64,000 bases of DNA from Weissella bombi (GTDB lineage Bacteria > Bacillota > Bacilli > Lactobacillales > Lactobacillaceae). The stretch covers positions 1-64,000 of the forward strand of contig NZ_FMAO01000005.1 of assembly GCF_900094835.1 (NCBI RefSeq). Direction: 5' to 3'. A program made the position numbers and the translations under genes. Below are positions 1-10,620 of this stretch, in pieces (position 1 is the first letter of the stretch; each line of letters starts with the position of its first letter). Under the pieces are notes generated by a model. It did no database searches. It was not told the DNA's origin and saw nothing but the letters and a program-made list of their open reading frames with translations.

Positions 1-2420
1 GCTTCACTTACTCCTTCGATGGCTGTCTCACCGTCACTTGCAGCACTTTGTGCTGTCTCTGGTGTCGTTGCATTATTGATATTTGCCTTTGCTTGGTTAG
101 CCGCTGCATTCACTTGACTAATCAAATCAGCCTTCTCGTCTGCAGTCAAACTATCATTACCATTAATCGCATCGATTGCATTTTGGGTTGCTTCCACTAA
201 CGTGTGATTTGCATCATTCTTTGCTGCTTGTAACTTGGCTGCTTCGCTTGCTTCTTCAATGACTGTTTCACCGTCACTTGCAGCACTTTGTGCTGTCTCC
301 GGTGTTGTTGCATTATTAATGTTTGTCTTTGCTTGGTCAGCTGCGGTATTTACTTCCCCAACTAAATCAGTCTTCTCGTCTGCCGTTAAGCTATCATTAC
401 CATTAATCGCATCGATCGCATTTTGAGTTGCTTCCGCCAACGTGTGATTTGCATCATTCTTCGCTGCCTGTAACTTGGCTTCATCACTTACATCATTGAT
501 AGCCGTTACACCGTCACTTGCAGCACTTTGTGCCGTCTCTGGTGTCGTTGCATTATTGATGTTTGCCTTTGCTTGGTCAGCTGTGGTATTTACTTGCCCA
601 ACTAAATCAGTCTTCTCGTCTGCTGTTAAGCTATCATTGTCATTAATTGCGGCTATTGCTGTTTGTACTGCGTTTGACAATGCTTGGTTAGCATCATTCT
701 TCGCTGCTTGTAACTTAGCTGCTTCGCTTACTTCTTCGATGGCTGTTTCACCGTCACTTACAGCACTTTGTGCTGTCTCTGGTGTCGTTGCATTATTAAT
801 GGTTTCTTTTGCCTGCTCTGCTGCAGTGTTTACTTGATTAACCAGATCATCCTTCTCGTCTGCCGTTAAGCTATCATTACCATTAATTGCGTCTATTGCA
901 TCTTGAACTGTGCTATCAAGCTTATTCTTGGCAGTATTCTGAGCAGCATGTAACTGATTACTCTCGCCAGTCATTGTTGCTTGAACTTGACTAATTGCGG
1001 CTAAACCATCCGCAGCATCTTGATTAACCGCTGGAATAGTTGTATCTGCATTTACCTTTTGAACTGCCTCATCATGCGCTGCATTTACTTCGTTAATTAA
1101 TGCTTGCTGACGCGCTGCACTTAGACCTGAGTTCTTTACCTGCTCAATAGTGTTATTACGTGCTTGATCTAATTGCTTAACGGCATCGTTCTTTGCTGCT
1201 TGTAACTTAGCTGCTTCACTTACTCCTTCGATGGCTGTCTCACCGTCACTTGCAGCACTTTGTGCTGTCTCTGGTGTCGTTGCATTATTGATGTTTGCCT
1301 TTGCTTGGTCAGCTGCGGTATTTACTTGCCCAACTAAATCAGTCTTCTCGTCTGCTGTTAAGCTATCATTGCCATTAATTGCGGCTATTACATCTTGTAC
1401 TGTACTATCAAGCTTATTCTTGGCGGCATTTTGAGCAAGATGTAATTGATCACTCTCATTCGTCATCGTTGCTCGCACTTGAGTAATTGCGACCAAACCA
1501 TCCTCAACATCTTGATTAACTGCTGGAATGGTTGTATCTGCATTTACCTTTTGAACTGCCTCATCATGTGCTGCATTTGCTTCGTTAATCAATTCTTGCT
1601 GACGCGCTGCACTTAGACCTGAGTTCTTTACCTGCTTAATAGTTTCATTACGTACTTGATCTAATTGCTTAACGGCATCGTTCTTTGCTGCTTGCAATTT
1701 AGCAGCTTCGCTCACACCATTAATAGCTGTTTCGCCGTCACTTGCAGCACTTTGTGCTGTCTCCGGTGTTGTTGCATTATTAATGTTTGACTTTGCTTGG
1801 TTAGCCGCTGCGTTCACTTGACTAACCAAATCAGTCTTCTCGTCTGCTGTTAAGTTAGTATTACCATTAATTGCATCGACTGCTGTTTGTACTGCGTCTA
1901 ATAATGCATGGTTGGCATCATTCTTTGCTGCTTGTAACTCGACTGCGTCACTTACATCATTGATAGCTGTTTCACCAACATTTTCAGCACTTTGTACTGT
2001 CTCTGATGTCGTTGCATTATTAATGGTTTCTTTTGCCTGCTCTGCTGCAGTGTTTACTTGCCCAACTAAATCAGTCTTCTCGTCTGCTGTTAAGCTATCA
2101 TTACCATTAATTGCAGCTATTGCTGTTTGTGCTGCGTCTGATAATGCGTGGTTGGCATCATTCTTCGCTGCCTGTAACTTTGCTGCAACACTTACATCAT
2201 TGATGGCCGTTACACCGTCACTTGCAGCACTTTGTGCCGTCTCTGGTGTCGTTGCATTATTGATATTTGCCTTTGCTCGGTCAGCTGCCGCATTCACTTC
2301 ATTAACCAGGTCAGTCTTGTCAGCCGCTGTTAAACTATCGTTACTATTTATCTGGTTAATTAAATCTTCCTCAGATTGACCAACTTCTGCCAATGCTTTA
2401 TTCTTCGCATCGGACAAGTT
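1..2420 (-). repeat. Ten tandem ~240-bp coding repeats (DUF1542-like)
   Basis: A conserved block (plus-strand accgtcacttgcagcacttt or variants) recurs near positions 30, 270, 510, 750, 1242, 1734, 1974 and 2214. Two diverged units sit near 1005 and 1497. Spacing is exactly 240 bp between adjacent standard units and 492 bp across each standard+diverged pair. The period is a multiple of three, so the reading frame is kept. Copies are nearly identical, which suggests recent duplication or gene conversion. The array continues past the left edge. Confidence 0.93.
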
Positions 2421-5162
2421 CGTCATATCCTTTAACTGATCAACAATATCATTATAGATTTTATTGGCCGCATTAACATTTGGCGCCTTATCAACACTAC
2501 CGTCTGAAGCAACAGCTGCATTTACTAGGTTGTCAATTGTGGAATTAATTTGATTCCGTTGCTCCGTAGTAAGATTTGGTAATTGATTAATATGTTCCTT
2601 AGCATTCGAACCCGCCTTATTAATTGCATCTTTAACTTGATCCAAACTGATAATACCCAAGTCTTGTGAAACAGTATCACTATCGACGAAGTTTTGTGTA
2701 CCATAAACATCTACCGTTGCACCAGCTGGCAAATTATTTACAACATCTGCAGGTATCGTGAAAGAGAATTTATAACCCTTTCCACTCGGATCCTTTGTTG
2801 TAGAAGCTTGTGCTGCATAAATAACCTTTGACAAACCTGTATTTTCCTGCCAATAAGGACTTTGAAGGTTATTACCAATAATTTCATTCCCGTTACTTGT
2901 GGCATGAATGTAAGCACCAGGTGTATCAGTAAATCCCTCAATAGTCTTTGAACCATCCTCATTATTTATAACATTCACTGTATTATCAATGATAGTAACA
3001 AAATCGTTAGCCTGTACGAATTCCAATGTATTAACATTTGCATCAGAACCTAATTCATTTAACTGACTAACTAAACTATCTTCGTCATCCTTCGTCAACC
3101 CAACAATTTTATTACGATCGGCTGAAGATACCGAAATTGCCCCTCCATTACCAGTAAAACTAACATGCTTAAACGGACCTGTCTGCGTACCATTATATTG
3201 CAAACGAACAACATTTAAGTTAAAACTACCATTTCCAATCCATTGCGCATTATTGTTATTTCCTTTGTATAGTAGAAAATCTTTTGGGTTATCAATTAAA
3301 ACATTATTACCAACATTCAACAATGTTAGCTTGCCTGTGCCACCAGTTGCATCATCAAGTCGGATTTTAAACACACTACCTGTAATATTAGCATTACCAC
3401 TTATTTTCACTAGCGTACCAGCAAAACTTCCCATATCATGACCAGTGACAATAAATTTAGCATTCTTACCAACATTTAATTGTCCATTGATATAAACAGA
3501 AGTATTTGCAGAGTTGGAATTCATAACATTACCGTTTACTGAAATCTCAACATCAGCACCATCTTCAATGTTAACAGTCGTATTTGCATCAATAATACTA
3601 ATGGCAGCAACCCCTTGTTTAGAGTCTTGACCAGCGTCAATCTTTAATGTACCACCAGTTTCAACCGTCAAAGTTCCTGAACCGGCCATATAAATACCAT
3701 TAGCATTCCAACCGTGTTCAGCATTACCCCAAGCACCATCACCATTATCATGAGGTGTTAATGTAACAACCGCCCCCTTCTTAATCTCGATAGTACTGTT
3801 ATTCCCCGTCATATGAATAACATTATCTTTGAAAGTAGAACCATCAAACTCCGAATCAACATCAAAAATAATATGATCATTATCAGACGTAAACTCAAGT
3901 CCTTGTTGAGACGAACCCACATTAACATTTGCACCATCTACTGGACTAACATAATGATCAACCGTTTTTACCGTATTTTTACCCTGAAAAATAACAGTTG
4001 TGTTGGCACCAGCATATACTAATTGCGCACCGGTATAACTGGTATTTCTAAAAGTAATCGTTGCACTATCCAAACGTGAACTGTTAACAACACCATAATA
4101 GGTCGTTCCATACATATCCAAATTTTCATAAGTTAAATTCAATTTGCCGCTTACTGGGTACGGGTAACTACCTTGAAAATCAATGGCATAACGTGCACCA
4201 TCATTTGAACGAATTAATAATGAATTATCAGGTCGACTAGCAACGTCAACACCACCACCCCATGTTGGGTCTTTTAAATTATTATCAATAATAATTTCGT
4301 TAATGGTTGAATCATTTAAAGCATTTTTAAATTCATCCCAAGTTGCCACATGACGGCTACTTGTAGCCTTAACAGTTGGCACATTATCACTATTTGCCTT
4401 AGTTAGGTTTTTATTATCTGCAGTTGATGTGTTATTTGCAACAACTTCTTTAGCTGGATTATCCATATTTATCGTATCAGTAACGTTTGGCTTTACCTGC
4501 TCATTAGCATCACTAGCCTTATGATTATCTGATTCTGATACATTTTCACTAGAATTAACAATATCATTATCAGATACAACTGAAACAGATGACGAAGCAG
4601 CTGCGGATGATAAAGCAACAGTATTTTGAGTAGCATCACTAACAGCTGTTGTCGCAGAATAATCATTAGCCGAAGATGCCTGTGATGAAGTTTCCGAAGA
4701 AGCGACAGCACTTTGCGGTACAGCTGTACTACTTGTATTATTCTGCACCTTATCATCACTTACACTAGATACATCAGTAGCGACACTTGATGAAGGTTGT
4801 TCCTTCGTATCAGTTTGTGACTCGTCATTCACAGCAGATGAACTAGTTTCACTACTGGCAATCACATCATCTCTTTCGCTCGCAGAAGTAACATTACTTT
4901 GTGCAGTTTCACTCGTACTTTGTGCTGCTGACGATGCTTGTTTGTCAGGCAACACAACCTCTGAAGATGATCCTAGCAGATTACTTGCCGATGAAGCAGC
5001 CTCACTACTTGATGTTGACGAATCTACAACAACATCCGCATGTACATTTTCAATAGAAAATGCGCCCATTATCAAAAATGACATAACCGATATTGAAGCA
5101 AATACCCATTTTTTACCATCTTTATACATTTTGTAATGTTCTTTTGTATCTATATCCTTCAT
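1..5162 (-). CDS. Giant repeat surface adhesin, C-terminus beyond window edge
   Basis: The minus frame is open from an ATG at 5162 (RBS GGGTAGGA) to the left edge, about 1,720 visible residues. Residues 1-45 form a KxYKxGKxW-type signal (KMYKDGKKW, then a hydrophobic stretch), a class linked to the accessory Sec/glycosylated serine-rich adhesins. Residues ~46-265 are Ser/Ala/Thr-rich. Residues ~270-670 are rich in short beta-strands and Asn/Gly and match the pectate-lyase-like beta-helix domains of LAB adhesins. From ~residue 915 run ten ~80-residue helical units of DUF1542 type (core NDSLTADEKTDLV, then NNATTPETAQSA). The C-terminal anchor is not visible. Role inferred: cell-surface adhesion or biofilm. 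It has its own promoter, downstream of the WxL locus terminator. The exact family of the beta-helix is uncertain. Confidence 0.88.
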   Translation of the reverse strand, partial: MKDIDTKEHYKMYKDGKKWVFASISVMSFLIMGAFSIENVHADVVVDSSTSSSEAASSASNLLGSSSEVVLPDKQASSAAQSTSETAQSNVTSASERDDVIASSETSSSAVNDESQTDTKEQPSSSVATDVSSVSDDKVQNNTSSTAVPQSAVASSETSSQASSANDYSATTAVSDATQNTVALSSAAASSSVSVVSDNDIVNSSENVSESDNHKASDANEQVKPNVTDTINMDNPAKEVVANNTSTADNKNLTKANSDNVPTVKATSSRHVATWDEFKNALNDSTINEIIIDNNLKDPTWGGGVDVASRPDNSLLIRSNDGARYAIDFQGSYPYPVSGKLNLTYENLDMYGTTYYGVVNSSRLDSATITFRNTSYTGAQLVYAGANTTVIFQGKNTVKTVDHYVSPVDGANVNVGSSQQGLEFTSDNDHIIFDVDSEFDGSTFKDNVIHMTGNNSTIEIKKGAVVTLTPHDNGDGAWGNAEHGWNANGIYMAGSGTLTVETGGTLKIDAGQDSKQGVAAISIIDANTTVNIEDGADVEISVNGNVMNSNSANTSVYINGQLNVGKNAKFIVTGHDMGSFAGTLVKISGNANITGSVFKIRLDDATGGTGKLTLLNVGNNVLIDNPKDFLLYKGNNNNAQWIGNGSFNLNVVRLQYNGTQTGPFKHVSFTGNGGAISVSSADRNKIVGLTKDDEDSLVSQLNELGSDANVNTLEFVQANDFVTIIDNTVNVINNEDGSKTIEGFTDTPGAYIHATSNGNEIIGNNLQSPYWQENTGLSKVIYAAQASTTKDPSGKGYKFSFTIPADVVNNLPAGATVDVYGTQNFVDSDTVSQDLGIISLDQVKDAINKAGSNAKEHINQLPNLTTEQRNQINSTIDNLVNAAVASDGSVDKAPNVNAANKIYNDIVDQLKDMTNLSDAKNKALAEVGQSEEDLINQINSNDSLTAADKTDLVNEVNAAADRAKANINNATTPETAQSAASDGVTAINDVSVAAKLQAAKNDANHALSDAAQTAIAAINGNDSLTADEKTDLVGQVNTAAEQAKETINNATTSETVQSAENVGETAINDVSDAVELQAAKNDANHALLDAVQTAVDAINGNTNLTADEKTDLVSQVNAAANQAKSNINNATTPETAQSAASDGETAINGVSEAAKLQAAKNDAVKQLDQVRNETIKQVKNSGLSAARQQELINEANAAHDEAVQKVNADTTIPAVNQDVEDGLVAITQVRATMTNESDQLHLAQNAAKNKLDSTVQDVIAAINGNDSLTADEKTDLVGQVNTAADQAKANINNATTPETAQSAASDGETAIEGVSEAAKLQAAKNDAVKQLDQARNNTIEQVKNSGLSAARQQALINEVNAAHDEAVQKVNADTTIPAVNQDAADGLAAISQVQATMTGESNQLHAAQNTAKNKLDSTVQDAIDAINGNDSLTADEKDDLVNQVNTAAEQAKETINNATTPETAQSAVSDGETAIEEVSEAAKLQAAKNDANQALSNAVQTAIAAINDNDSLTADEKTDLVGQVNTTADQAKANINNATTPETAQSAASDGVTAINDVSDEAKLQAAKNDANHTLAEATQNAIDAINGNDSLTADEKTDLVGEVNTAADQAKTNINNATTPETAQSAASDGETVIEEASEAAKLQAAKNDANHTLVEATQNAIDAINGNDSLTADEKADLISQVNAAANQAKANINNATTPETAQSAASDGETAIEGVSE

Positions 5163-5225
5163 TATTTTCCTACCCTTCAAAATATCATACATATTTCATT
5201 CTATTAAAAGTAGTAAATGATAAGC

Positions 5226-5315: not shown

Positions 5316-5357
5316 AAAGAACTGGTGTTCACCTTACAAAGTGAACACCAGTTCTTT
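5316..5357 (-). terminator. Terminator of WxL locus
   Basis: A perfect 17-bp inverted repeat (AAAGAACTGGTGTTCAC with its complement) around an 8-nt loop, followed on the minus strand by TTTTTAT. It lies 30 bp beyond the last WxL-locus gene and upstream of the adhesin promoter, so it separates the two transcription units. Confidence 0.9.
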
Positions 5358-5386: not shown

Positions 5387-6298
5387 TTAATTAATAGTAT
5401 GATTTAAAATTTTGTTTTTACCATTAATTTGTATGATTATTCGTAATTTTTTTGCTACCCGTGACCTTTCTTTAACCGTCGTATCTAAATGTAACTTAGT
5501 ATGAGGTGTTAAAGTTGCTTGCCTAGAAACAATATTTTTTTGAATTAACTTCATATCACCATCATAAACTTTCGTGATAATCTTAGCGTGTTGTAATAAT
5601 TTATTATTTTGATTAATAATCGTATAGTTGATCAAATGATGGTTTTGCTGTTTAACATCTGCTAATCGCAAATGTATTGGCACCTTATTTGGATGCCCCA
5701 TTTTAGCAACAATCGCATAACTATAAGCAATCTGGCTTTGCATAGTTCCTGACGTTTTAGAGCCATTTAAATCAACAACATGTAAACCACCAACAGCAGT
5801 GCCATTACTTGATTTGTCTAAACGCCTTAATTTCATGACCACTTCGGCAGTATGATTAGCCGGTACTCTAAGATGCATTTGATTGCGATGATTCTGCAAA
5901 AAAATTGCTTGCTTGTCATAATTAACATTCAAATGACCATAACGATTTGCTTTTGCTTGATTACTATAATCAACCGCCAAATTCTGATTAGTAAAAGCAT
6001 TATGCAATGATAAATTAAAGTTACCTTCACTATCACCTGTCACTATTTTAAAACGCAATAATTGCTCCTTTTGTGTCGAAATATTTACGTGCCAATAACC
6101 AGTCTGATTTTTATCTTGATTATTAGCAAACATTGGCACAACTGTATAACCATTAATCTTAGTTTGTTGGTCATTTTTATAAACTTTAACTGGCTGTTCA
6201 TTCGCAAAAACAGTGGTATTAAATAAAAACAGCAATATCCAAACCATCAAAACAGTCATTAACAGCTTTTGCCATCTAACAATTTTTAATATTTTCAT
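5387..6298 (-). CDS. DUF916/WxLIP-like secreted protein without membrane anchor
   Basis: About 303 residues from ATG 6298; a GTG at 6310 overlapping the upstream stop is the alternative start. An N-terminal signal peptide (basic start, then a hydrophobic core ending near VFANEQ) is followed by a beta-rich module that parallels the DUF916 domain of the neighbouring 349-residue protein (GYTVVPM versus NFAVVPQ near the mature N-terminus). A second Ig-like half resembles DUF3324. Unlike that neighbour it ends in a hydrophilic, basic tail (ILNHTIN) with no transmembrane helix. It is the last gene of the WxL operon. Inferred role: a soluble or complex-bound partner of the WxL proteins. Assignment to the DUF916 family is by pattern and context. 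Confidence 0.7.
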   Translation of the reverse strand: MKILKIVRWQKLLMTVLMVWILLFLFNTTVFANEQPVKVYKNDQQTKINGYTVVPMFANNQDKNQTGYWHVNISTQKEQLLRFKIVTGDSEGNFNLSLHNAFTNQNLAVDYSNQAKANRYGHLNVNYDKQAIFLQNHRNQMHLRVPANHTAEVVMKLRRLDKSSNGTAVGGLHVVDLNGSKTSGTMQSQIAYSYAIVAKMGHPNKVPIHLRLADVKQQNHHLINYTIINQNNKLLQHAKIITKVYDGDMKLIQKNIVSRQATLTPHTKLHLDTTVKERSRVAKKLRIIIQINGKNKILNHTIN

Positions 6299-6309
6299 AT
6301 TTAATCTCA

Positions 6310-8196
6310 CTATTGTGGACCATTCACAACATCATATCGAATCGTTGCGCCGCCTTGACCATCACCTTGTTGCAGATTATTCGTTGTTCTTAGTAACAAT
6401 CCATTATTATTATGATAATTAAAGGTATAATTCATACCTCCTTGTGAAGTCGTCACATCAGTTGGCAAAGTTGCGTCATCAGTTACCGTTTCAATCGTTT
6501 GCGGTACATTACTCAACTCATGCTTCTTATTGGCTAACGTTAACGATTGCCATGAATATTTTGTCATATTTGGTAACTGATTATTTAAAATTGTTGCTTG
6601 AATGGAAAAGTTTGGCTTCGCAGTTCTGTCATCTTGCACACTCAGTTGCATATTGTCATTACCAGGTAACGTTGGTCCAAAAGTACCATCACGTGGCAAA
6701 TCAGCTAAATCGACATTGTAACTACGATTCATCTTACTATTTACTATCGCTAAACCACTCGGCACGCGCCAATCGATATACTTAGCCGTTCTAAGAAAAG
6801 TCAAATCACTAGCACTATACTGATTTGGTGCCATTGTCGAAGTTGTAAAATTACCATCCAAACTACCATTGCTAGCACGTTTATACAAAGACCTATTTGG
6901 TGGTGTATCATCACCATCAAAATTAGTGCTGGCATGTAACTTCACACCATTTCCACCACTAAAGTTTAACGGGATATTTGAACTAATAACCGCTGTTTTA
7001 CTTGATTGCAGCGTAAAGTTATTAATATTATTAAATTGAATTGCTGAACCAGTATTTACTTTTCCTTTAATAACGTTACCATTGCCTAAGTCTTGAATAT
7101 CAACTTTAGACCCCTGATCAAATTGCCAATTAACTTGACCAGTAAACGCATCTAAATTAATTGGTCCACCAGCCATTTCTACTCTTAAATTACCATTATC
7201 ATGTACATGACAATTAAAGTTAGTAAATGACGTTGACATAAACCAATAATTAGCATGACTGGCAGTAGCACTAGTTCCATTAACCGTAAAATTAGCATTC
7301 TTGCCGATATCCCAATTGAGCGGGCCGGTAGAACTACCATAATACATAGTGTACGTATCATTTAAATTCCAATTTAATGATGCATTGTCATCAATTTTCA
7401 TTGTCGCAGAATTACCGTTATTATAAGTATAGAACGGTTGATCCCATGCCCAATTTTGATTTAAATTTGTCCGACCATTTACGACTTCAACCCAATGACC
7501 ACCTTGAATCCATTCACCATTATTATCATCACCACGTGACGTTGTCGATGGTGTATTAAAATTAAAATCAGCGTTAATACTAAAATCATTATTCCCTTCG
7601 AGCAAAACTTTGCCTTGCTCATTACGAATTGGACTTGCTCCGGTACGTGCACCACCATTTGTCACAGTAACATCTTTATAAACTGTATTTGCAGCGGAAA
7701 CACCTGTTATTGAAAAAATACCATTCGAAATACCATTAACAATTTTTGCATTTTCAACAGTCAATGTTGTTTTTCCTGTTACCTTGGCATCATTATTAGA
7801 ATAAAATCCTGGATTGGAAAATCCCGCGCTAAACCTTGACGTCCCCACTCTGTCATTTGGAGAAGCCGCAAAATATAATTGATGACCGTTACCAATTATG
7901 GTCAAATTCTTGGTTTCGCCTATCGGTACGCCCTTCAAAGCTTGCGCATCACCTGGAATATCCTTTACAACATTTAAATAGATTGTTTGTCCCGCAACTG
8001 GTGCTTGATAAGTATCATACATATCACGCCAACTCGAAACATCATAATACTTGGCATTAACAACACCAGTAATTGAACCATCAGTATCAACTTTAGCTGG
8101 CATCACAGCCGCATAACTAGTGCTACTTGTCTTTAAAAGTAACGCAATTATGACTGAACTCATTAATACCAAAGTTGCTAATATTTTCTTTAACAT
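6310..8196 (-). CDS. Beta-helix surface protein with Trp-less WxL-like C-terminus
   Basis: 628 residues from an ATG with AGGAG RBS. A signal peptide (hydrophobic residues ~4-28) is followed by a long Asn/Gly/Thr-rich region (~50-470) with repeated short strands, like pectate-lyase-type adhesive domains in large WxL proteins. The C-terminus (~500-628) aligns with the WxL domain: VQDDR then NFSI (residues ~529-532) where canonical proteins have GWTL, and a final ATIRYDV (Arg620) where they have LNWTL. Both tryptophans are therefore replaced. The ORF is intact and sits 1 bp from its upstream neighbour, so decay is unlikely. Inferred to be a surface-exposed adhesin of the WxL complex. Confidence 0.75.
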   Translation of the reverse strand: MLKKILATLVLMSSVIIALLLKTSSTSYAAVMPAKVDTDGSITGVVNAKYYDVSSWRDMYDTYQAPVAGQTIYLNVVKDIPGDAQALKGVPIGETKNLTIIGNGHQLYFAASPNDRVGTSRFSAGFSNPGFYSNNDAKVTGKTTLTVENAKIVNGISNGIFSITGVSAANTVYKDVTVTNGGARTGASPIRNEQGKVLLEGNNDFSINADFNFNTPSTTSRGDDNNGEWIQGGHWVEVVNGRTNLNQNWAWDQPFYTYNNGNSATMKIDDNASLNWNLNDTYTMYYGSSTGPLNWDIGKNANFTVNGTSATASHANYWFMSTSFTNFNCHVHDNGNLRVEMAGGPINLDAFTGQVNWQFDQGSKVDIQDLGNGNVIKGKVNTGSAIQFNNINNFTLQSSKTAVISSNIPLNFSGGNGVKLHASTNFDGDDTPPNRSLYKRASNGSLDGNFTTSTMAPNQYSASDLTFLRTAKYIDWRVPSGLAIVNSKMNRSYNVDLADLPRDGTFGPTLPGNDNMQLSVQDDRTAKPNFSIQATILNNQLPNMTKYSWQSLTLANKKHELSNVPQTIETVTDDATLPTDVTTSQGGMNYTFNYHNNNGLLLRTTNNLQQGDGQGGATIRYDVVNGPQ

Positions 8197-8197
8197 T

Positions 8198-8767
8198 TTA
8201 TACTCCTACGACGACTGTATGCTGTATCGTTGCAGAGTAGCTATCTGGTTTTACGAGCATTACTTTTCTAGGATCCAAAACCATTTCAGCAGATACGTTT
8301 CCTGACTCTTCAATACTTGCATTATTGTTTCCTGAAGTAATCACAGTCGCTGGCTGATGATAAATATCCGCCTTTTCAAGGCCTTGTAAGGACCTATCTG
8401 CATTTGTCTCGACATGGTACCATATGTTTTTTACCGGTAACTTTTCTTCATTATTAAGTGCTTGAAAGTCACTAATTTCAACTTGTACTTGAAAACTAAT
8501 TGTTTTATTCGCCAAATCTTTGATTTTATAATCACTATCACCAATTCCAGTAATATGCTGCTTGTTACTACTAATATTTCCAAAATCAAGATTTGGCGCT
8601 TGTTCAATAATAATCCCCTCAGCAGGCGATAACGAAGAAGATACATTTATCGTTGTCGTACCTGTGGTTGCGTCATCTGCATAAACGCTAGTTGCAATGC
8701 ACCAAGAACATAATGCAACACAAATAACTACCCATATACTCCTCAAATAATAATTTTGATTTAACAC
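8198..8767 (-). CDS. Small secreted WxL-like protein lacking WxL motifs
   Basis: 189 residues starting at GTG 8767, which has AAAGGGG 7 bases upstream; the overlapping ATG at 8769 hits a stop two codons later. A signal peptide covers residues ~8-30 (cleavage after VYADD). NLDFG (residues ~59-63) is typical of the start of WxL domains. The positions where WxL proteins have their two Trp motifs read ISFQVQV (~90-96) and YSATIQHTVVV (~177-187). The fold is probably a short WxL-type beta domain, but peptidoglycan or WxLIP binding through tryptophan cannot be assumed. It sits between the anchored DUF916 gene and the 628-residue protein. Confidence 0.65.
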   Translation of the reverse strand: MLNQNYYLRSIWVVICVALCSWCIATSVYADDATTGTTTINVSSSLSPAEGIIIEQAPNLDFGNISSNKQHITGIGDSDYKIKDLANKTISFQVQVEISDFQALNNEEKLPVKNIWYHVETNADRSLQGLEKADIYHQPATVITSGNNNASIEESGNVSAEMVLDPRKVMLVKPDSYSATIQHTVVVGV

Positions 8768-8792: not shown

Positions 8793-9842
8793 TTACTTAA
8801 CCGATCGTTTCTTAAAATAAATGTAAATAGCCGACAATATTAAGATCATCACAATGATGATTCCCATTGTCGTTCCAATCATCAACCAGTCTGTTTGATG
8901 GTAACCATTTATTTTATTTGTCTTATGATCCGTAAGTGTTACAGTACGATCAAACCGCCACGTCTGATGACCAGATTTCATTACCAAATGCAACTTATAT
9001 TTACCTGCTGATAACTTAGTAGTCCCAATATCAAAAGGAATTGCATAAATACTATTCGGCGCAATTTGACTACCTAATTTTTTATTATCAATATTTACCT
9101 TATAAGTTTTATGAAGTAATCCTTCTTTTCTAAAACTACCTTTAACTGATACTCGATTTATAAATACTGGGGTTTGATTATGAATATTAGCCATGACAAA
9201 ACGCTGTGTACCAATCGCTTTTGGTATAACCGTCCCTAACGCTAAGTGTGGGCTTATAACCGAATTACTCTCGGCATTATGTAAAACAACCCCCACAGTG
9301 TAGCTATAATGATTAATAACATTTGTTGTTTTCTGCGTTGACCGATCTTTTAAATGTATTTCTTTAAAGTTAATGCCAGCAACTTTCACATTTTCAAAAT
9401 TTTGTTCATTAACATGTAACGCAATTGGCACATCAACGGACGATTTTGCCGGAATAGTTGTTTCTTTGGGTATTGAAATATCTTGTTTGATGTCACCTTG
9501 TTTTTGATATGAGTAATCGAATTTATCCTTTAAATCCGATTCCCGTTGACTATCATACTGGACAACACCATGCATATTTGTATAAGCGCGACCAACAGTT
9601 GCCTTAACTATAACTGGTTGATTCGTATCGTTCGTTAACGTTACTGCAAGTTTTTGCTGCTGTCCTGGATGCACCTTTAAATCAAAATAACTTTTTTTAC
9701 TATTCACTTGATTTTGCGGCTGTTGTGGCACCACGGCAAAATTTAATTCACTTGCACTAATAGGTTGATTATCCAAACAAATGAATATGAACATCACAAA
9801 TAATGAACAGATAAACCAAAATAATGATTGTTTATTTTTCAT
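8793..9842 (-). CDS. Membrane-anchored DUF916/DUF3324 protein (WxL-interacting)
   Basis: About 349 residues from ATG 9842; upstream in-frame starts at 9854 and 9857 also overlap the WxL gene's 3' end. There is a signal peptide, then DUF916 (~35-150, beginning NFAVVPQQPQNQ, with typical DLKVHPGQQQKLAV), then DUF3324 (~155-300). A C-terminal transmembrane helix (~315-340) ends in the basic tail YFKKRSVK. This is the standard architecture of WxL-interacting proteins, which sit on the outer face of the membrane and bind WxL proteins and peptidoglycan. It overlaps the upstream WxL gene, so translation is probably coupled. Confidence 0.88.
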   Translation of the reverse strand: MKNKQSLFWFICSLFVMFIFICLDNQPISASELNFAVVPQQPQNQVNSKKSYFDLKVHPGQQQKLAVTLTNDTNQPVIVKATVGRAYTNMHGVVQYDSQRESDLKDKFDYSYQKQGDIKQDISIPKETTIPAKSSVDVPIALHVNEQNFENVKVAGINFKEIHLKDRSTQKTTNVINHYSYTVGVVLHNAESNSVISPHLALGTVIPKAIGTQRFVMANIHNQTPVFINRVSVKGSFRKEGLLHKTYKVNIDNKKLGSQIAPNSIYAIPFDIGTTKLSAGKYKLHLVMKSGHQTWRFDRTVTLTDHKTNKINGYHQTDWLMIGTTMGIIIVMILILSAIYIYFKKRSVK

Positions 9843-10620
9843 TGCTTGGAACATCACTCAAAGTCCAATTTAAAGTCGTCGTATATTCACCAGCTAATTT
9901 ATTTGATGAACCTGGCACATTTAATGACACGGCATTATCAACCGTACGACTCGTATCACCATCCCCTTTTTCAGTTACTAAATTATCAGCTTTTCCCATT
10001 CGTGCTACCCAGGTTCCCTGACCAGTATTAGCCTTTGCGCTCATAACTGTTTGCGCACCAGTTCCCGGAATTAATGTCATATTGCCGCCTGCAGTTGCAC
10101 TCCCCGCATCACTATCTGCCTGCGTAGCCGCAGACAAATCACTAATGCCAATTTGTGCACCCTTCAATTCTTTACCATTATTCATAAATTGAGATGGCTG
10201 AGCTACTGACAATGTCCAACCTGCACCAGTACCACGACTATCTGTTACTTGTGCGTACAAGACTGAGTTATCCGAAACGCCCTGATATCCTTGCGCTTTA
10301 GCATAATAAGTCTGGTTTTTAGGGCTTATTTTTTGTGAACCAAAATCAAAATCTGATACATAATCTAATGATAAGGGTCCAGTAGTTCCGGGCTTAACAT
10401 CATTTCCATCAGGAGTAACTGGTTTTACCGGTTGATTAGCGTCTGGTTTATCAGGATTAACCGGACCTACCGTATCTTGACTAGGGGTGAAATTTACATT
10501 TGCAGATGTTGTATAGTTTGCCCCATCAGCATAAGCAGGAACTACTGCTACTGTTGAAACACCTAATATAGACAACGTTACTAAAATTGAATTCTTTAAT
10601 TTACTGTTTGATAACAACAT
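9832..10620 (-). CDS. WxL-domain surface protein
   Basis: 262 residues, first gene of the operon, with AGGAG RBS. A signal peptide (cleavage near AYADG, residue ~32) is followed by a Pro/Asp-rich linker (~50-80) and a C-terminal WxL domain: LDYVSDFDFG (~85-94), VTDSR (125-129), GWTLSV (Trp135) and LNWTLSDVP (Trp252). WxL proteins attach non-covalently to peptidoglycan through this domain. It is the only protein of this locus that keeps both canonical WxL motifs. Confidence 0.92.
   Translation of the reverse strand: MLLSNSKLKNSILVTLSILGVSTVAVVPAYADGANYTTSANVNFTPSQDTVGPVNPDKPDANQPVKPVTPDGNDVKPGTTGPLSLDYVSDFDFGSQKISPKNQTYYAKAQGYQGVSDNSVLYAQVTDSRGTGAGWTLSVAQPSQFMNNGKELKGAQIGISDLSAATQADSDAGSATAGGNMTLIPGTGAQTVMSAKANTGQGTWVARMGKADNLVTEKGDGDTSRTVDNAVSLNVPGSSNKLAGEYTTTLNWTLSDVPSNEK

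Follow-up and report, generated by a model that had tools for sequence, protein, structure and literature searches.

Can a protein domain that is named after two tryptophans lose both of them and still be kept as a working part of the cell surface? This question is raised by a stretch of 64,000 nucleotides from Weissella bombi (contig NZ_FMAO01000005.1, positions 1 to 64,000, hereafter the window), in which two neighbouring genes encode proteins of 189 and 628 amino acids (aa) that resemble the WxL domain and carry other residues at its two Trp positions. The two Trps are regarded as the hallmark of the domain, and a conserved class without both would let natural variation reveal the role of the motif. 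Judged from its sequences, this Trp-less class looks like a working second version of a known surface system and not like a product of decay. The 189-aa and the 628-aa protein, together with the WxLIP encoded beside them (WxLIP2), probably form a Trp-less csc module next to a canonical WxL protein and its WxLIP1, and the altered groove of the Trp-less domains would give this module its own choice of partner.

The five genes lie head to tail on the minus strand (10620-5387). As had already been observed from the sequence alone, the open reading frames (ORFs) of the two proteins in question are intact and tightly packed, the gap between them being 1 nucleotide (nt):

9832-10620, minus strand: canonical small WxL protein, 262 aa (PF13731, 202.6 bits; W135 and W252)
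8793-9857, minus strand: WxLIP1, 354 aa, with DUF916, DUF3324 and a transmembrane helix (PF06030, 95.9 bits; PF11797, 101.4 bits)
8198-8767, minus strand: small Trp-less WxL protein, 189 aa, intact ORF, GTG start preceded by AAGGGG
6310-8196, minus strand: large Trp-less WxL protein, 628 aa, intact ORF
5387-6310, minus strand: WxLIP2, 307 aa (PF06030, 53.1 bits; DUF916 domain alone by Pfam)
8492-8494, minus strand: codon TTT of Phe92, first WxL Trp position of the 189-aa protein
8219-8221, minus strand: codon CAT of His183, second WxL Trp position of the 189-aa protein
6607-6609, minus strand: codon TTT of Phe530, first WxL Trp position of the 628-aa protein
6334-6336, minus strand: codon TAT of Tyr621, second WxL Trp position of the 628-aa protein

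Motif positions and membership of the WxL superfamily

In both proteins Phe replaces the first Trp (Phe92 in the small and Phe530 in the large one, where the canonical neighbour has W135), just as the sequence-only reading had it. At the second position, W252 of the neighbour, His183 is found in the small and Tyr621 in the large protein. The resulting tripeptides are FQV and HTV in the former, FSI and YDV in the latter, and neither protein contains the two Trp-x-Leu motifs by which PF13731 is defined. Arg or His had been proposed for the second position; the His stands, whereas Arg620 of the large protein is a register slip, lying one residue before Tyr621. We take Tyr621 as the second position because TIRYDVVNGP falls under TLNWTLSDVP, because Tyr621 is aligned over Trp in BLASTP with a relative of type W/W (residues at the first/second position), and because this column holds Tyr in 15 and Trp in four of 19 large C-termini. 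Asp occupies W1-8 in both proteins (positions according to PMC9772566), and Arg occupies W1-6 in the 628-aa protein only, Ala being found there in the 189-aa one; beyond the Trps, the signature residues are thus retained in part.

That the two proteins belong to the WxL superfamily in a wide sense is well supported by sequence comparison, while strict definitions, by two motifs or by Pfam score, fail; PF13731 has no match in the 628-aa protein, and in the window's genome its single match at E 0.001 is the canonical protein. The profile of Trp-less small proteins matches the canonical WxL profile in hhalign with 99.2% probability (E 8.7e-20) and with the motif columns in register, and several relatives of the 189-aa protein score above the curated PF13731 cut-off of 25 bits (37.3 bits in L014, 29.8 in L015, 30.0 in L136 and 26.2 in G025; we number loci with L and genomes with G). 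The 628-aa protein aligns in BLASTP with the large W/W protein of L017 at 8e-18, Phe530 and Tyr621 standing over the two Trps, and the profile of large C-termini matches the large F/W relative of L047 with 97.3%. Owing to these two matches and to the graded series W/W, F/W and F/Y, we assign the C-terminus of the 628-aa protein to the WxL2 kind. Several results weigh against such a membership. With 18.5 bits, the 189-aa protein itself remains below the PF13731 cut-off; between the large C-terminal profile and the small canonical one there is no match (0.4%), and the former meets the Trp-less small profile with 29.5% over the last 25 columns only. Since this profile fails to match the small profiles directly, membership of the 628-aa protein rests on bridging relatives. 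A comparison of the full 628-aa alignment with the canonical profile was rejected, as it matched signal peptides only.

Conservation of the substitutions and their partners

Searching the 397 genomes of the family with a large-protein profile (A2, built from four rows) gave matches in 12 at E 1e-10, and the 189-aa protein as query finds four of 151 genomes at 0.001, the window's own being counted in both cases; the small profile at 1e-12 matches 7 of 28 genomes of the window's genus. A scan of genome contigs with the 189-aa protein revealed no relative, and a second one with the large-protein alignment found five. Named relatives come from Latilactobacillus fragifolii, Fructobacillus broussonetiae, F. 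durionis, F. papyriferae and a Leuconostocaceae bacterium; these Fructobacillus and Latilactobacillus genomes belong to the window's family.

The gene clusters are of two kinds. Kind I, found in the window, in L. fragifolii (L013) and in L039, L040, L043 and L044 (these four representing three more genomes of the window's genus), comprises one or two canonical WxL genes, WxLIP1, the small and the large Trp-less gene and, where the contig continues, WxLIP2. A further gene adjoins WxLIP1 in four of these clusters. Tested in L039 and L040, it proved to encode a sortase; the genes found at this place in L043 and L044 are of similar size, and the cluster of L040 also contains an acyltransferase gene. 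Kind II comprises the Fructobacillus-type clusters (L014, L015, L041, L046) as well as L136, L141 and L143; it consists of a small gene, a WxLIP gene (two in L015) and a large gene, with no Trp at the motif positions.

The six small proteins of kind I, including that of the window, share 26-43% identity (68% between two from one genome). In all six, the first position is filled by Phe or Tyr and the second by His, and His183 belongs to the 23 residues that never vary across 177 gap-free columns. The large proteins of kind I have Phe first (6/6) and Tyr second in all four that extend to it. A survey of homologues for a conserved Phe and Arg had been suggested by the sequence-only reading: the Phe is confirmed by these large proteins, and the second residue is Tyr, not Arg. 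Strain-specific decay, which the same reading had named as a refuting outcome, is contradicted by the His in all six small proteins and by the Phe and Tyr kept in large relatives, because the substitutions are conserved across related genera at low identity; its proposal of functional non-canonical members agrees with their being kept across genera. Furthermore, Phe and Tyr are two and His is three base changes away from TGG, a single change giving R, C, G, L or S, so that these substitutions do not bear the mark of drift.

Loss of both Trps is unusual but recurrent. Motif types were tallied by profile-based calls, regular-expression calls having been discarded for mis-assigning several rows, and the samples are non-random (best matches, places down a ranking with skips, neighbours). 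An order-wide PF13731 search covered 70 genomes, and 51 proteins tallied from loci drawn from it are 45 W/W, four W/Y, one F/W and one uncalled at the first position. Forty places down the small-profile ranking (a few rows skipped) gave 39 tallied proteins, 36 W/W and three Y/F, the remaining place (G220, Y/W) being counted elsewhere as a duplicate. In 140 small proteins called at both positions, the 24 non-Trp residues at the first and the 23 at the second are all Y, F or H; one Ile-first row was left out of this count beforehand, and L097:488, which is uncalled, reads Ile at the second position. His-type small proteins were seen in four of the 28 genomes of the window's genus (G000, G236, G357, G366). 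A third Trp-less type, Tyr/Phe, is found in small proteins of L242-L246 (G132, G049, G232, G248, G290), and no WxLIP was found in the stretches around them (5/5 loci).

For a quick tree of small proteins, 83 rows (57, being every second of 114 W/W, and 26 others) were used with the two motif columns removed; rows shorter than 150 or longer than 330 aa, uncalled rows and those with Ile or Leu first were left out. All 20 proteins whose second residue is Tyr or His (12 Y/Y, four Y/H, two F/H, two W/Y) fall into one group, which is unstarred at 85 in the Shimodaira-Hasegawa-like approximate likelihood ratio test (SH-aLRT); the six His types form a starred group (100), and three Y/F proteins stand separately (100, starred). 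Large WxL proteins of about 780 aa with Trp first and Tyr second occur in another family of the order (L126-L129, L247, L248), and in L047 (G357:C2) a small WxL gene of type Tyr/Tyr is directed towards a pair on the opposite strand, a WxLIP gene and a large F/W gene.

The alternative that survives best is ordinary relaxation of a WxL domain, in which the W positions would be merely part of the hydrophobic core and the exchanges neutral drift bringing no new specificity. The W pair has been described as a buried structural platform beneath the N-terminal strand of the domain, and the motifs are termed structural (PMC9772566), which favours relaxation; the earlier statement that the Trps are thought essential for the domain is not supported, as whole groups use Tyr, His or Phe. 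Variation at a single position is likewise seen elsewhere (four W/Y and one F/W of the 51 order-wide proteins; Y/W and W/Y in others). The 19 aligned large C-termini comprise two W/W (L145, L017), two F/W (L138, L047), nine F/Y, two Ala/Tyr and four Val/Tyr; Ala or Val thus takes the first position in 6/19, namely in L042 and in all but one of the six Fructobacillus-type large proteins, and a ring is not always needed there, which counts against a groove kept aromatic. Relaxation nevertheless seems unlikely to us, as the Trp-less types cluster on the tree, occur in matched sets of small protein, large protein and WxLIP, and have His fixed in 6/6 despite low identity. It was considered whether Trp549, invariant in the large proteins, compensates for the lost pair; this was rejected, since a Trp near there is also present in the W/W protein of L017 and the F/W protein of L047.

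The WxLIPs add a second line of evidence for a distinct module. In a tree of 49 WxLIPs from the clusters in hand, with partner labels set by hand (29 canonical, 15 Trp-less, five mixed), all 29 with canonical partners lie on one side of a branch and all 20 with Trp-less or mixed partners (15 + 5) on the other. Several rows for which the scripted rule gave no adjoining WxL gene took the label of their cluster, namely L040:12494, L043, L044 and L204 as canonical, window:5387, L013:8020, L039:6001 and L040:9198 as Trp-less and L144 as mixed; L145, with a small Y/W and a large W/W protein, was placed among the canonical rows. WxLIP1 of the window belongs to a starred set (97) of 15 canonical-partner rows and WxLIP2 to a starred set (98) of five Trp-less-partner rows. 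The same split is found in all four clusters possessing both proteins (window, L013, L039, L040), and the operon therefore seems to join two modules. Speaking against so neat a division, the separating branch has an SH-aLRT of 78 (unstarred), and all Trp-less or mixed rows come from one family; the tree is unrooted, its Trp-less and mixed rows being one side of a branch and not a demonstrated clade.

WxLIP2 itself departs from the full WxLIP plan (PF06030, PF11797 and a transmembrane helix). PF11797 is not listed for the 307-aa protein at E up to 1, and the best 19-residue hydropathy within its last 130 residues is 0.41, against at least 1.33 in 47 of the 49 WxLIPs; just two of them, WxLIP2 of the window and that of L. 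fragifolii (L013:8020-9039), lack a clear hydrophobic helix at the C-terminus. At one of two aromatic positions in the conserved YFDL strand of WxLIPs, a Trp is present in 11 of 15 Trp-less-class proteins, in none of 29 canonical ones and in none of four scorable mixed ones, a comparison made post hoc. It corresponds to three changes on the tree, every Trp row lying on the Trp-less side, and a test of the association is powerless because there is one independent pair only. Among WxLIPs of further loci, read by eye and untallied, no YFDL Trp was seen beside W/W or W/Y partners.

Binding to the DUF916 proteins or to the canonical WxL protein, instead of to the wall, had been suggested for the two proteins before. 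The former is plausible but not distinctive, having been proposed for WxL domains in general (PMC10599100); by sequence, the two proteins go with a particular WxLIP. The latter corresponds to the second alternative, namely that the Trp-less proteins no longer bind the wall and are carried by the canonical WxL protein or by WxLIP1, both encoded in their operon. A canonical small WxL gene is indeed nearby in 6/6 His-type clusters, and no large adhesin other than the Trp-less one appears in the sequence retrieved around them. However, the five Fructobacillus-type genomes, searched with PF13731 at E 0.01, yield their own Trp-less small protein only (4/5) or nothing (1/5), which makes such binding to a canonical WxL protein unneeded. 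No canonical WxL was found either in the fetched stretches of the three-gene clusters L136, L141 and L143, although it may exist elsewhere in these genomes, as in G251 and G366, and WxLIP2 travels with the Trp-less pair; this second alternative is improbable. Decay of paralogues is hardly credible: breaks do occur among relatives (L016 has a large gene with one TGA and in fragments, L137 has split genes, and G230 a small gene with four stops), but the ORFs of the window and of most relatives examined are intact, the residues are conserved and the exchanges are not single steps from TGG. L144 also contains a broken relative of the large or small Trp-less gene, with stops or split frames.

Domain identity, conservation, module make-up and WxLIP grouping are thus read from sequence, and they favour a Trp-less module beside a canonical one. 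With canonical and Trp-less sets in one operon, each with its own WxLIP, a two-by-two comparison of partner choice lies ready.

Predicted structures and the putative groove

The pilin-like fold and the likeness to adhesins discussed below come from structure predictions, in which the following parts of the two proteins were delimited:

8627-8656, minus strand: N-terminal strand, residues 38-47 of the 189-aa protein, candidate donor strand (DSSP of the model)
6976-8082, minus strand: parallel beta-helix region, residues 39-407 of the 628-aa protein (VIA match to the SRRP binding region)
6313-6780, minus strand: C-terminal WxL2-type domain, about residues 473-628 of the 628-aa protein (alignment to W/W and F/W relatives)

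Modelled by AlphaFold from a 17-row alignment, the 189-aa protein reaches a mean predicted local distance difference test score (pLDDT) of 80, with block means of 82-97 from residue 51, and resembles the chaperone-usher pilin fold. Phe92 lies in strand 92-98 and His183 in strand 176-187. In Foldseek against the PDB the six best chains are all FimA (E 4.8e-5 to 8.9e-4), VIA-align with self-complemented FimA gives Z 10.1 (root-mean-square deviation, rmsd, 3.5; 141 residues aligned), and 38 of the 50 listed VIA rows are chaperone-usher pilus subunits or adhesins. Because the FimA alignment starts at residue 31, the modelled strand 38-47 seems to stand where FimA has its own donor strand; a point against this is the low confidence of the N-terminus, where block means of pLDDT fall to 54 (31-40) and 75 (41-50). 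Sequence searches were silent: the small-protein profile found no relative among PDB sequences (two matches, E 0.13 and 0.81, are taken as chance), and phmmer with the canonical WxL protein gave nothing there at E 1.

The model of the 628-aa protein combines an SRRP-like beta-helix adhesin with a beta domain at the C-terminus (pLDDT 86.5; predicted template modelling score, pTM, 0.85), Phe530 lying in strand 530-539 and Tyr621 in strand 617-625. In VIA its beta-helix matches the binding regions of L. reuteri SRRP with Z 29.1 (313 residues aligned, rmsd 2.7 A) and 24.9, the next row having 17.4. Since the beta-helix fills the VIA list, the C-terminal domain is seen only through weak Foldseek rows from type 1 pilus assembly structures (9fwz_E, E 0.13; 9fw9_B, E 0.22), for which no model range is given. 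In a sequence search the large C-terminal profile retrieved almost only azurins (best E 0.036), which we take as chance.

How might the exchanges alter partner choice? The WxL domain would be an incomplete immunoglobulin (Ig)- or pilin-like sandwich, whose two W positions, on two strands, would floor a groove for the protein's own N-terminal strand or for one offered by a WxLIP. Phe or Tyr with His in the small proteins, and Phe with Tyr in the large one, would keep a ring yet reshape this groove, and the members of the Trp-less set could then pair among themselves and with their own WxLIP. The FimH plan places an adhesin domain in front and a pilin-like domain behind, and the large protein may be built in the same manner. 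We infer the groove role of the W positions, the partner specificity and the surface display. A hairpin strand of the WxLIP was predicted to insert parallel into a gap of the WxL domain, completing the sandwich (PMC10599100); taken with the pilin-like model obtained here, this would amount to donor-strand complementation under another name. The words chaperone and donor are absent from the text of that paper.

Several known systems are close to the proposed module. With the csc clusters cscA-D (Siezen et al. 2006, PMC1534035) it shares a small WxL1, a large WxL2 and a DUF916 protein in one operon; here, both Trp-x-Leu motifs are missing in the small and large members, and two DUF916 proteins occur in one operon, the second without a membrane helix. 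The WxL/WxLIP complex of Hassan and co-workers (PMC9772566, PMC10599100) has the same domain plan, the Asp at W1-8, the C-terminal place and a WxLIP partner, whereas in the Trp-less set the Trp pair is replaced and the WxLIPs lie on the opposite side of the tree from the canonical-partner ones. The predicted small-protein fold with an N-terminal strand in its own groove recalls the chaperone-usher pilins FimA, FimG and CsuA/B, and an adhesin domain followed by a further domain recalls two-domain tip adhesins; the organism is, however, Gram-positive, and neither an operon usher, nor a Cys pair in the mature protein, nor sequence similarity was found. In the 628-aa protein a beta-helix like that of the L. 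reuteri SRRP binding regions (5ny0, 5nxk) is fused to a WxL2-type domain.

A bolder proposal, which we regard as doubtful, treats WxL clusters as a Gram-positive equivalent of chaperone-usher adhesins and the Trp-less set as a second, orthogonal donor-strand specificity class, its bulk moved to the YFDL strand of the WxLIP. Small WxL proteins would then be pilin-like subunits with an N-terminal donor strand, large ones FimH-like, with an adhesin and a pilin-like domain that lacks a donor strand, and the WxLIP a membrane-anchored two-Ig chaperone or base; the Trp lost from the WxL groove would reappear in the YFDL strand of the partner WxLIP. If the pilin-like reading were true, a widespread Gram-positive surface system would be tied to donor-strand assembly, which is best known from Gram-negative pili. 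In the open-licence PMC literature we found no description of WxL as a donor-strand or chaperone-usher-like system, nor of a Trp-less WxL class. The PDB entries 9i1y and 9i25 are EfmWxLIP1 (E 1e-52), and in 9i25 a further chain bears the name WxL domain surface protein (E 0.032), so the likeness to pilins may already be known to their authors.

Further features of the operon

None of the five operon genes encodes an usher according to Pfam (the rest of the genome was not searched for one), and the mature 189-aa sequence contains no Cys and hence no pilin cysteine pair. In the canonical 262-aa protein, a Pro-rich linker joins the N-terminal strand to the WxL domain. Past the last gene, the following structure is likely the operon terminator, while the consensus scan does not have it in its terminator list:

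5316-5357, minus strand: strong hairpin with T-rich tail (-28.4 kcal/mol, z -7.7)

The next gene beyond this hairpin (3-5192, minus strand) runs off the contig end and encodes a protein with a KxYKxGKxW signal, a pectate-lyase-like adhesive domain and DUF1542/GA repeats, a second adhesin of this kind beside the 628-aa one.

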